Source: Desulfoluna spongiiphila
GTDB taxonomy: Bacteria > Desulfobacterota > Desulfobacteria > Desulfobacterales > Desulfolunaceae
Direction: 5' to 3'
DNA: 64,000 bases
Assembly (NCBI RefSeq): GCF_900101345.1
Contig: NZ_FMUX01000004.1
Coordinates: forward strand, 109,239-173,238
The notes under the pieces are model-generated. The model searched no databases, was not told the DNA's origin, and saw nothing but the letters and a program-made list of their open reading frames with translations. Shown piece after piece: positions 31,961 through 63,559 of the stretch. Numbering within the stretch: position 1 is the stretch's first letter; the number at the start of each line of letters is the position of its first letter. The translations under genes were made by a program, and so were the position numbers.

Positions 31961-31986
31961 AAGCCCCGCAGACCCTGCGGGGCTTT
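31961..31986 (+). terminator. Terminator after acsE
   Basis: AAGCCCCGCA pairs with TGCGGGGCTT, followed by TT. It would end or attenuate the acsD-acsE transcript before the small hypothetical gene and second cooC. Confidence 0.75.
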
Positions 31987-32059
31987 TCTCATCTTCCGAT
32001 CATGCGAAAGGCTTTCCATGACGCGGAAGGCTTTCCGTGATGCGGAAAGGATACAGGCA

Positions 32060-32377
32060 ATGACCATGGACAAAACGACTGACGACAAAGGCTGGATCTA
32101 TATTTATGTGAACAATCCCGGGAAAGATGAATCCTTTGCCGGATTTGACGATCAGGAGCTGGGGATCCGGTTTATCCCGGCCTTTCAGGACAAAGAGAGC
32201 GCCCTGATGTGCTCCGGGCACTTTATGGACCCCGCCGCCTCCTTTGAAGCCCAGGCGATCCACAAAGACGACCTGAACCGCTATGCCGCGGACCAGAACT
32301 TCCTTATCTTCATGCTGGACAAAACAGGGGCCATTCTTGAAAAAATCAATCCCTTCCCTGCAGCCGAGAAGACCTGA
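32060..32377 (+). CDS. Hypothetical 105-residue protein, possibly SseB-like
   Basis: No firm family. The sequence has two short beta-alpha stretches (KGWIYIYVNNPGKDESFAGF, GIRFIPAFQDKESALMC) whose pattern recalls SseB N-terminal domains, and ends in a strand-turn (FLIFMLDKTGAILEKINP). No signal peptide. ATG 32060 follows AGGATACAGGCA; the frame is open further upstream through a short region of 19-bp tandem repeats (roughly 31998-32050) that I do not take as coding. It lies between acsE and the second cooC, so a role in CODH/ACS assembly or regulation is possible but unproven. Confidence 0.6.
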   Translation: MTMDKTTDDKGWIYIYVNNPGKDESFAGFDDQELGIRFIPAFQDKESALMCSGHFMDPAASFEAQAIHKDDLNRYAADQNFLIFMLDKTGAILEKINPFPAAEKT

Positions 32378-32614
32378 CAGGCCATAAAGACCAAAGGGGC
32401 GCCCATGGGTGTCAACCAACGGCAGGACAGCACCAGTCACACCGGTGCTTGATGGTTGCCCCCCTCCCCTTCAATCCTTGCACACGCCGGGCATATGCCC
32501 CATAGTGAGCAAAGAAAAAATGAATCAGCGGGGTCTTGGATCCCGCCACAAGCTTTGACATATCGGGGAGACGCTTTTTCCTGAGCGACCGGCCCCATGA
32601 CGGGAGAACGATCT

Positions 32615-33388
32615 GTGAGTTTGAAACTGGCATTTGGAGGCAAAGGCGGGGTCGGCAAGACAACCCTTACCGCTCTTATCGCACGCATCATCGCCCGGGA
32701 GGAGAAGAAGGTCATCGCCATCGATGCGGACCCGGTCTCCAACCTGGCATCGGCCCTGGGCATTTCCGAAGAGATTGAAATCACCCCCATCGCCCAACTC
32801 TCCGACCTCATTGCCGAGAGAACCGGGGCCAAGCCCGGGACCATGGGAGGCTTTTTCACCCTGAACCCCAAAGTGGACGATATCCCCGACCGGTTCTCCC
32901 TCGAACGGGACGGTGTCAAGCTGCTTGTGATGGGAACAGTGCAAAAGGGAGGCTCCGGATGCATCTGCCCGGAGAGCACCATCTTGAAAGCCCTGATGAT
33001 GCACCTGGTGCTGCAGCGCGATGAGGTGGTGGTGATGGACATGGAGGCCGGGGTAGAACACCTGGGCCGGGCCACCACCGGATCGGTAAACGCCCTGGTG
33101 ACCGTGGTCAACCCCGGCAAAAGAAGCCGGGTGGCGGCCCTTCAGATCCGGCGCCTGGCAGAAGAGCTGGGGATCAAACGGGTGATGATCATCGGCAACC
33201 GGGTCCGCTCTGCGGAAGACCGGCAGATGATTGAGGAGAGCTTAAGCGATTTCGAGATCCTGGGGTTTGTCCCGGAGCTTGATGAGGTGGCCGAATCCGA
33301 TCGATCCGGAGAGCGCCCCTACGACGACATCGAAACCGTCCCTGAGGCCTTGCGTGAGATCGCCGTCAAACTGGCCAGCCTGGACTAA
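32615..33388 (+). CDS. cooC: CooC-type nickel-insertion ATPase (second copy)
   Basis: About 257 residues. P-loop AFGGKGGVGKTTLTALIA at the N-terminus, VVVMDMEAGVEHLGRA as Walker B, and the CxC of GGSGCICPESTIL that marks CooC. It is clearly diverged from the copy at 17653: different linker after IDADPVSNLASALG and no shared insert. GTG 32615 is chosen because GGGAGA lies seven bases upstream and the P-loop then starts at the usual place; ATG 32597 is the alternative. It lies downstream of acsE and a terminator, so it may be separately transcribed. Confidence 0.92.
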   Translation: MSLKLAFGGKGGVGKTTLTALIARIIAREEKKVIAIDADPVSNLASALGISEEIEITPIAQLSDLIAERTGAKPGTMGGFFTLNPKVDDIPDRFSLERDGVKLLVMGTVQKGGSGCICPESTILKALMMHLVLQRDEVVVMDMEAGVEHLGRATTGSVNALVTVVNPGKRSRVAALQIRRLAEELGIKRVMIIGNRVRSAEDRQMIEESLSDFEILGFVPELDEVAESDRSGERPYDDIETVPEALREIAVKLASLD

Positions 33389-33426
33389 AAAAAACGGCCC
33401 CTTTTCCCAGGGGAAAAGGGGCCGTT
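33387..33426 (-). terminator. Strong hairpin terminator between cooC and the HesB-like gene
   Basis: AACGGCCCCTTTTCCC pairs with GGGAAAAGGGGCCGTT. Only the minus strand has a T run after the stem, so it best serves the HesB-like gene; it may still slow transcription from cooC. Confidence 0.85.
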
Positions 33427-33474: not shown

Positions 33475-33789
33475 TTAGGAGCAGCAGGAGCCGGTGGAGC
33501 TGCAGCTGCCGCAAGCGGACTCAAGCTTGAGGCTTGAGGTCACTTTGAAGCCCACTTCAAGGAAATCAACCTTGATGGGCTGGGCCTGGCCCAGAAATTC
33601 CTTGTCTACAATGTAGACGTAGCCATCCACTTCAAATTTTTCGTCGGTGTCTTTAGACTCATCCAGAGCCATGGCAAGGGAAGGGCCCCCTCAGCCACCG
33701 GAGTTGAGAAAAATACGAATGGGCATGACTTCCCTGCCCTTGAAATATTCTGCAATCTGTTGCGTTGCAGCCGCAGTCACCTCTAACAT
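33475..33789 (-). CDS. HesB/IscA-like selenoprotein with in-frame TGA (selenocysteine at residue 33)
   Basis: The frame runs from ATG 33789 (GGAGG just upstream) through a single TGA at 33693-33691 to TAA at 33475. The product is 104 residues if TGA is read as Sec. Around it the protein reads IRIFLNSGG-U-GGPSLAMALDE, where other family members have Cys, and sequence on both sides of the TGA is conserved in type. The tail ACGSCSSTGSCCS supplies the other two metal-binding Cys. HesB-like selenoproteins are a known group. A standard gene finder would call only the 65-residue part from 33672. The G/C-rich mRNA just after the TGA could form a SECIS stem, but I could not settle its fold. Confidence 0.85.
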
Positions 33790-34146
33790 GGGACCTCCAT
33801 AGAAGCTGTAAATATATAAGAAAAATGAAACTTTCGTTTCGTCTATCGGGCTTGGCACAATGTAAACATTCGGTTTACCCTTGTCAATAAAGAAAAACTA
33901 TGGAAAATCCATCCGCATTCAGTTTCATCAATACCACGGGACAGCTGCGCACCGCGGGGCTGCACCCCTTGCCGTCGGGACCGCTCCGCCCTTTTAAGGA
34001 CAGAGGGGCCGGCCCCGCCGTCATCAGGCTGTCATCACCATGACCATGATACCCGCAGGGTGCCACAGGCGGCGGTACCGCGGGCGTATTGCCGGAATTA
34101 TGTTTCCGCATCCCTCAACCATCAAACAAGGAGCCTTCCCACACCC
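33790..34146. promoter_or_regulatory. Divergent spacer between the HesB-like selenoprotein gene and ndk
   Basis: About 357 bp without a supported gene. It contains an exact inverted repeat GTAAAC-ATTCG-GTTTAC at about 33861-33877, about 70 bp upstream of the selenoprotein start and suited to a dimeric regulator. A smaller GAAAC-TTTC-GTTTC repeat lies near 33826. Confidence 0.35.
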
Positions 34147-34563
34147 ATGGAACAGACGCTATCCATCATCAAACCCGACGGGGTCAAAAAACAGATCATA
34201 GGCGACGTGATCCGGCGATTTGAAAACCGGGGCCTTTCGGTCAAGGCCATGCGCATGCTTCAGATGACCAAAGAAGATGCCATGGGCTTTTACGCCGTCC
34301 ACAAGGAGCGCCCTTTCTTTGACAGCCTCACCGACTTCATGTGCTCAGGCCCCGTGGTGGTGATGGTCCTTGAAGGGGAAAAAGCCATCGCCCTTAACCG
34401 GGAGATCATGGGCGCCACCAATTTCAAAGAGGCCGATGAAGGAACCATCCGAAAAGATTTCGCATCATCCATCGAAAGCAACGTGGTCCACGGCTCCGAC
34501 GCCCCGGAAACGGCCAAAACGGAAATCGCCTACTTCTTCTCCTCCCTTGACATCATGGCCTGA
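34147..34563 (+). CDS. ndk: Nucleoside diphosphate kinase
   Basis: Transfers the gamma-phosphate of ATP to other nucleoside diphosphates. 138 residues, normal. It starts with [20 protein letters not shown]. The active-site His lies in the conserved block [23 protein letters not shown] 34147 is the family start; AAGGAG lies 13 bases upstream. It is followed by a strong terminator, so it is monocistronic. Confidence 0.97.
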
Positions 34564-50964: not shown

Positions 50965-51079
50965 CGATGCGGTGACCACGCCAAACCGGGGGTGACCCCG
51001 GGACGGAAAGCCACGGGTCCGGGACGGCAGCAATCACGCTGCCCCCGGGCAGCCGGGTTACTTGCCGCAAAGGCGGCAA
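50965..51079 (+). ncRNA. Cyclic di-GMP-I (GEMM-I) riboswitch
   Basis: Canonical core features: CCAAACC, a stem with GTGA tetraloop (GGGGGTGACCCC), GGGACGGAAAGCC and ACGGGTCC, a second hairpin (GGCAGC...GCTGCC), and the closing AGCCGGGTTAC. P1 pairs GTGACC (50972-50977) with GGTTAC (51056-51061). It is followed at once by a 7-bp hairpin TTGCCGC-AAAG-GCGGCAA (51062-51079) ending just before the ribosome site GGAG, which could be the expression platform. It controls the exported protein at 51091. The sub-class (c-di-GMP or cGAMP) is not settled. Confidence 0.85.
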
Positions 51080-62473: not shown

Positions 62474-63559
62474 TCACCCGGCCTCTTTCTTTATGCTCTC
62501 TTCGCCCTTGCCCGCCTCACGGACCGTGTTGACAATGTGCGTAAGCTCCGGCTCGAGCCCGAGGAACAGCTCTGCCAGCCAGGGGTCGAACTGCCGCCCG
62601 GCCCACTCGGAGATCTCGGCCAGGGAATCTGTGACGGACCAGGCCTTTTTGTACGGCCTTTCAAAGACAAGGGCGTCAAAGACGTCGCAGATACAGACGA
62701 TCCGTCCATAAAGCGGAATTTCCGGGCCCTTCAACCCTTTGGGGTAGCCGGTGCCGTCCCACCGTTCGTGGTGTGTCAGGGCTATCTCTTCGGCCATGCA
62801 AAGCAGCCGCGATGTGCTTCCGGAGAGAAGCTGGCCGCCGATTTCGGCGTGCTGTTTCATCACCACCCACTCCTCATCGGTGAGGGCCCCGGGTTTCAGG
62901 AGGATGGCATCTGAGATCCCGATCTTTCCGGCATCGTGCATGGTGCTTGCCAGGGCAACGAGCTCCACCTCGTCCCGGGGCAACCCTGCGGCCCGCCCCA
63001 GAAGACGGCAGTAATCGGAGATGCGCTGCACATGCTTGCCCGTGCACTCGTCGCTGTACTCGGAGGCAAGCCCAAGGCGGTTGATGATCTCAAGCTGGGT
63101 CTCCTCCAGCTCCCGGGTCCGCTCCCGCACCATGGCCTCCAAGGCGATGTTCTGCTGCCTCAAGGCCTCCTGGGCCGTGACCAGGGTGAGATGTGTCCGC
63201 ACGCGCGCCTTGACTTCGGCAATGTCAAAGGGCTTGGTGATGTAATCCACCGCACCGTAATCAAATCCCCGGGTTTTGTCTTCCGGCCTGTCCAGGGCGG
63301 TAATGAAAATAACGGGGATCCCCGCCGTCTCCGGGGCCCTTTTGAGGCGCCTGCACACCTCGAACCCGTCAACCTCGGGCATCATCACATCCAGCAGGAT
63401 CAGGTCCACCGGATGCTGCCGCACATATTCAAGGGCACGCACCCCGCTCATGGCAACCCCGAGCTTAAACGAATCCTTCAGGGCGTCGATGAGGATATCG
63501 AGGTTGGCCCTGGTGTCGTCCACCAGCAACACCCTGCACTGTTTCAAAGGCTCAGTCAT
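62474..63559 (-). CDS. Response regulator with HD-GYP phosphodiesterase domain
   Basis: About 361 residues. The receiver domain (residues about 10-125) has VLLVDDTRANLD, phospho-Asp in LILLDVMMPEVDG, Thr in FITALDRPED and Lys in YITKPFDIAEV. A coiled-coil linker follows (LEAMVRERTRELEETQLEI). The HD-GYP domain has HDAGKIGISDAILLKPG and HHERWDGTGYPKGLKG, so hydrolysis of c-di-GMP is expected. The start at 63559 (MTEPLKQ) has GGAAC upstream and overlaps the stop of the preceding gene by four bases (ATGA), so the two are co-translated; the partner is likely its sensor. Confidence 0.95.
   Translation of the reverse strand: MTEPLKQCRVLLVDDTRANLDILIDALKDSFKLGVAMSGVRALEYVRQHPVDLILLDVMMPEVDGFEVCRRLKRAPETAGIPVIFITALDRPEDKTRGFDYGAVDYITKPFDIAEVKARVRTHLTLVTAQEALRQQNIALEAMVRERTRELEETQLEIINRLGLASEYSDECTGKHVQRISDYCRLLGRAAGLPRDEVELVALASTMHDAGKIGISDAILLKPGALTDEEWVVMKQHAEIGGQLLSGSTSRLLCMAEEIALTHHERWDGTGYPKGLKGPEIPLYGRIVCICDVFDALVFERPYKKAWSVTDSLAEISEWAGRQFDPWLAELFLGLEPELTHIVNTVREAGKGEESIKKEAG

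Follow-up and report, generated by a model that had tools for sequence, protein, structure and literature searches.

The minus-strand gene at positions 33475–33789 of the window (the whole 64,000-nucleotide stretch of Desulfoluna spongiiphila DNA analyzed here) very probably encodes a HesB/IscA-like selenoprotein, HesB_Se, in which selenocysteine (Sec) is inserted at residue 33. This assignment is drawn from conserved sequence, a predicted RNA hairpin and the Sec machinery of the genome, which together support it strongly. The gene contains or is preceded by the following features.

33475..33789, minus strand: HesB/IscA-like selenoprotein gene (NF038090 match of 121.3 bits, order-wide conservation, predicted IscA fold)
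33691..33693, minus strand: in-frame TGA, the putative Sec codon (codon 33), the single interruption of the frame, at the alignment column of IscA's first Fe-S-ligand Cys
33794..33798, minus strand: ribosome-binding site GGAGG, 4 nt 5' of the ATG, read directly from the sequence
33656..33670, minus strand: candidate SECIS stem-loop GGCUC-UGGAU-GAGUC (predicted fold; synonymous-site constraint in Sec but not in Cys genes)

The frame runs on the minus strand from ATG 33789 to the TAA stop codon at 33477–33475, and its read-through product comprises 104 residues with Sec at position 33. An earlier note on this DNA had described the frame with its GGAGG and with the TGA at 33693–33691 as the sole break, and had predicted that ordinary gene calling, starting at 33672, would miss or truncate it. 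Both statements were confirmed on the sequence, and conventional ORF calling yields only 65 residues. The read-through product matches the NF038090 (IscA_HesB_Se) profile over positions 1–101 of 101, and the downstream 65-residue ORF alone reaches 61.7 bits, below the curated cut-off of 85 bits. A score of 121 bits with read-through versus 62 bits without it indicates that the frame is not due to chance. Among eight close relatives, the sequence on either side of the TGA is under purifying selection, with pN/pS values of 0.19 upstream and 0.18 downstream. The gene cleanly exemplifies a known family of selenoproteins whose genes are cut short by simple gene callers.

The NF038090 family is found in 133 of the 146 genomes that comprise this genome and others of its genus, family and order, and a copy with one in-frame TGA is present in at least 122 of them, as counted among the matches listed. 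The earlier note had proposed an alignment with Cys-containing homologues, folding of the sequence after the TGA and a genome search for selA, selB, selC and selD. The alignment, built from 63 distinct genes, reveals an exchange of TGA with TGC or TGT at one column, which carries TGA in 40 of 40 Sec genes and TGC or TGT in 23 of 23 Cys homologues. Moreover, the conserved Cys of 1nwb, an IscA-like protein from Aquifex, is the residue to which Sec33 aligns, and the placement of the TGA at the first metal-binding Cys of the family was thus upheld. A poorly resolved tree of the family places most Cys forms apart from the Sec forms, with about six changes of state. A Cys paralogue with TGC at the Sec position is encoded in the same genome (G000:C15:2749-3033; L047). 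Tandem Sec and Cys pairs on one strand, separated by a few hundred bases, are observed in G056 and G138 (L063, L064), and further pairs occur in G159, G231, G259, G311, G351, G412 and other genomes of a phylum sample.

The predicted hairpin begins 20 nt past the TGA, and its apical loop, UGGAU, starts at 25 nt with a G at loop position 2. Three codons in the hairpin are nearly fixed in the Sec genes (GCT in 39/40, CTG in 40/40 and GAG in 36/38) but not at the corresponding columns of the Cys homologues (8/18, 8/14 and 7/19, respectively). The difference in codon use gives Fisher P values of 8e-6 for GCT, 1e-4 for CTG and 5e-6 for GAG, in tests that are not independent because the sequences are related. 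Elsewhere in the Sec genes, the same amino acids are encoded by GCT, CTG and GAG in 17, 21 and 34% of cases, respectively. The mean z-score of the hairpin energy, computed against synonymous recoding with local codon usage, is −2.7 for the Sec genes and −0.2 for the Cys genes. The exact loop combined with a stem of at least four pairs is present in 33 of the 40 Sec genes and in none of the 23 Cys genes. Among the eight close relatives, pS drops to 0.24 in the 12 codons after the TGA, compared with 0.46 upstream and 0.69 further downstream. Folding of the single sequence after the TGA predicts the hairpin without a significant z-score, and the signal emerges only against synonymous recoding and across homologues. 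An Rfam search returned no SECIS match at the gene. Because the hairpin barely varies in the 40 Sec genes, synonymous sites included, and is absent from the 23 Cys genes, it is most likely a SECIS element. A DNA pattern consisting of the TGA plus the hairpin matched at least 117 stretches in the genome collection, and the matches listed include Clostridia, Geobacter, Desulfovibrio and a Myxococcota MAG. The readable translations of these matches are HesB-like proteins, some of which are ended by contig edges.

A pseudogene or a sequencing error, in which the TGA would be a genuine stop or a miscalled Cys codon, has a negligible probability: TGA normally terminates and lies one base away from TGC, TGT and TGG, but this explanation is already contradicted by conservation, given the TGA in at least 122 related genomes, the purifying selection before and after it and the SECIS hairpin conserved only in TGA genes.

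The machinery required for Sec insertion is encoded in the genome (6.5 Mb, 52 contigs). SelA (599 bits), SelB (356 bits), SelD (362 bits) and tRNA-Sec (75 bits; anticodon TCA, UCA in the RNA) were all found above their curated cut-offs. The selenoprotein call of the earlier note is thus strongly supported by the Sec machinery, the conservation of the family and of its TGA, and the SECIS hairpin. The SelD gene (G000:C25:216580-217503; L014) itself carries a single in-frame TGA, a feature shared with other Sec-containing SelD proteins; when the selD locus was scanned for its SECIS, mostly chance frames were obtained. Of the other in-frame TGA codons in the window, the one at 62474, which has the longest open frames to either side, was rejected as a Sec codon, since two unrelated genes surround an ordinary stop there.

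The HesB_Se protein, modeled by AlphaFold using 42 homologues (mean pLDDT of 81), is predicted to have the IscA fold. Its top structural matches in Foldseek are IscA and SufA, with the IscA-like DsrR among the best (best E-value of 1.5e-6; TM-scores to the query of 0.61–0.72). The tail from residue 90 is predicted to be disordered (pLDDT below 50), which places the cluster site beyond modeling. Residues R25, C/U33, G35, D43, D49 and F81 are invariant, and the tail residues C93, C96 and C102 show conservation of 90% or more, in agreement with the earlier proposal that the other metal-ligand Cys residues reside in the C-terminal tail. HesB_Se scores below the cut-offs of the related profiles, with 24.7 bits against PF01521 (gathering cut-off of 26.3), 35.7 bits against TIGR00049 (58.8) and 23.7 bits against TIGR01911 (HesB_rel_seleno; 66.35). 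Canonical IscA/SufA/ErpA proteins (PF01521, TIGR00049) share the fold and the first ligand position with the Desulfoluna protein, but they combine a Cys with a CxC tail, whereas the Desulfoluna protein combines Sec with a CxxC...CC tail. TIGR01911, a weak match that is likewise HesB-like with Sec at a UxGP motif, is a sister subfamily.

Catalogues of HesB-like selenoproteins from deltaproteobacteria and other bacteria go back to 2006 (Zhang et al. 2006, PMC1794560), consistent with the description of these proteins as a known group in the earlier note, and they are known in sulphate-reducing bacteria. The catalogued proteins and NF038090 have the same size, UGGP motif, Sec position and Cys-rich tail as HesB_Se and likewise occur in deltaproteobacteria that use Sec, among them Syntrophobacter, Syntrophus and Desulfovibrio (PMC1794560); nothing essential differs. 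The Desulfoluna gene is a further member of this family from a genus not named in the literature compared. The function of HesB-like selenoproteins is still given as unclear (PMC13188914). Mutagenesis and 75Se labelling revealed such a protein in Methanococcus maripaludis; its function was called unclear, and nitrogen fixation persists in its mutant (PMC11097638).

The proposed product is an A-type (IscA/HesB-like) Fe-S carrier or chaperone that contains selenium. With the SECIS hairpin just past the UGA as its guide, SelB would deliver Sec-tRNA and thereby place Sec at residue 33, where it would replace the first Fe-S ligand Cys of IscA. The flexible Cys-rich tail (C93, C96, C102 and C103) may supply the remaining ligands, a role assigned by homology. 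We hold with moderate confidence that the protein binds either an Fe-S cluster or iron and hands it on, in a host that contains NifU-type scaffolds and in which canonical IscA/SufA/ErpA proteins were not found. The tail motif, which differs from the CxC of IscA, and the nitrogen fixation retained by the M. maripaludis mutant were counted against this role. Alternatively, HesB_Se could be a selenoprotein with a thiol/selenol redox or metal- or metalloid-handling role, in which Sec33 reacts with the tail Cys residues and Fe-S trafficking is not involved. This function is possible but on the whole unlikely. The Cys-rich tail is compatible with it, as is the fact that the genes conserved beside it in other families (macro domain, FmdB-like zinc ribbon) are not Fe-S genes, and reviews suggest that most uncharacterized selenoproteins are redox enzymes (PMC13188914). 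However, the protein is predicted to adopt the IscA fold with Sec at the first Fe-S ligand position, and it displays neither a thioredoxin fold nor a CxxU/UxxC motif at the Sec.

The added value of the present analysis lies in the context of HesB_Se: the family is widespread in the order, mostly in its Sec form, and canonical A-type carriers are essentially undetected there. PF01521 found no match in this genome and was undetected in 145 of the 146 genomes of the order searched; the sole match is a TGA-containing gene at a place that NF038090 also reports. Because canonical carriers are essentially undetected, no A-type-like proteins other than HesB_Se and its Cys paralogue were found here, although a more diverged A-type carrier may lie below the search threshold in this genome. 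NifU_N proteins are present in the genome, and canonical SufB was not found in it. Across the phylum sample, PF01521 matches occur in 31 of 297 genomes; 13 genomes contain 23 places with scores above 54 bits and no internal stop, and many weaker matches contain a TGA. NF038090 matches occur in 165 of the 297 genomes, and the family is not universally required, given its absence from about 44% of the sample. We consider it conceivable, but doubtful, that, in Desulfobacterales and sulphate reducers allied to them, the selenoprotein has taken the place of the general A-type Fe-S carrier. Such a replacement would make Fe-S cluster delivery selenium-dependent, and in some species the Cys paralogue might serve as a backup that needs no selenium. 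Because some genomes, this one among them, carry both Sec and Cys paralogues, the selenium dependence of Fe-S assembly can be tested in practice.

HesB_Se lies beside a CODH/ACS cluster whose members include CooS, AcsB and the gamma subunit. The following features flank the gene.

32597..33388, plus strand: CooC-like P-loop ATPase, convergent, at the end of the CODH/ACS cluster (Pfam CbiA/ArsA/ParA-type hits)
33393..33426, minus strand: predicted intrinsic terminator after HesB_Se, a 15-bp stem and T run beside the convergent cooC (pattern scan)
33859..33887, minus strand: promoter-like site TTGACA-17-TACATT (consensus match of 10/12, which is not proof of function)
34147..34563, plus strand: gene that we take from its sequence to be ndk (nucleoside diphosphate kinase), a divergent neighbour of HesB_Se in several families of the order

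On the basis of these signals, HesB_Se is proposed to be transcribed on its own. The earlier note had raised a link to metal-cluster assembly for the CODH/ACS enzymes, and a dedicated maturation factor for Ni-Fe-S cluster assembly in the adjacent CODH/ACS would be consistent with the gene order: HesB_Se adjoins CooC and CODH/ACS in one sister genus (G006) and in every Desulfoluna genome in which the region was examined. However, the gene is convergent, with its own promoter-like site and a separate terminator, and the adjacency is limited to these two genera; it was not seen in G007, a third genus of the same family, or at the other loci examined, which is partial evidence because many of these loci have short flanks. 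A CODH/ACS partnership was therefore rejected as unsupported, and such a dedicated factor is highly improbable. The CODH/ACS genes seem to be lineage-specific neighbours, not partners, and the putative carrier would not be dedicated to CODH/ACS. The association with ndk is older than that with CODH/ACS. Other lineages carry genes for macro-domain and FmdB-like zinc-ribbon proteins upstream of HesB_Se on the same strand.

Two further elements were observed in the window. A small plus-strand gene (31985–32377) between the AcsE-like gene and cooC has no Pfam match and is 59–85% identical within the genus. A c-di-GMP-I riboswitch is located at 50970–51065 on the plus strand, with 51.2 bits versus an Rfam gathering score of 35.
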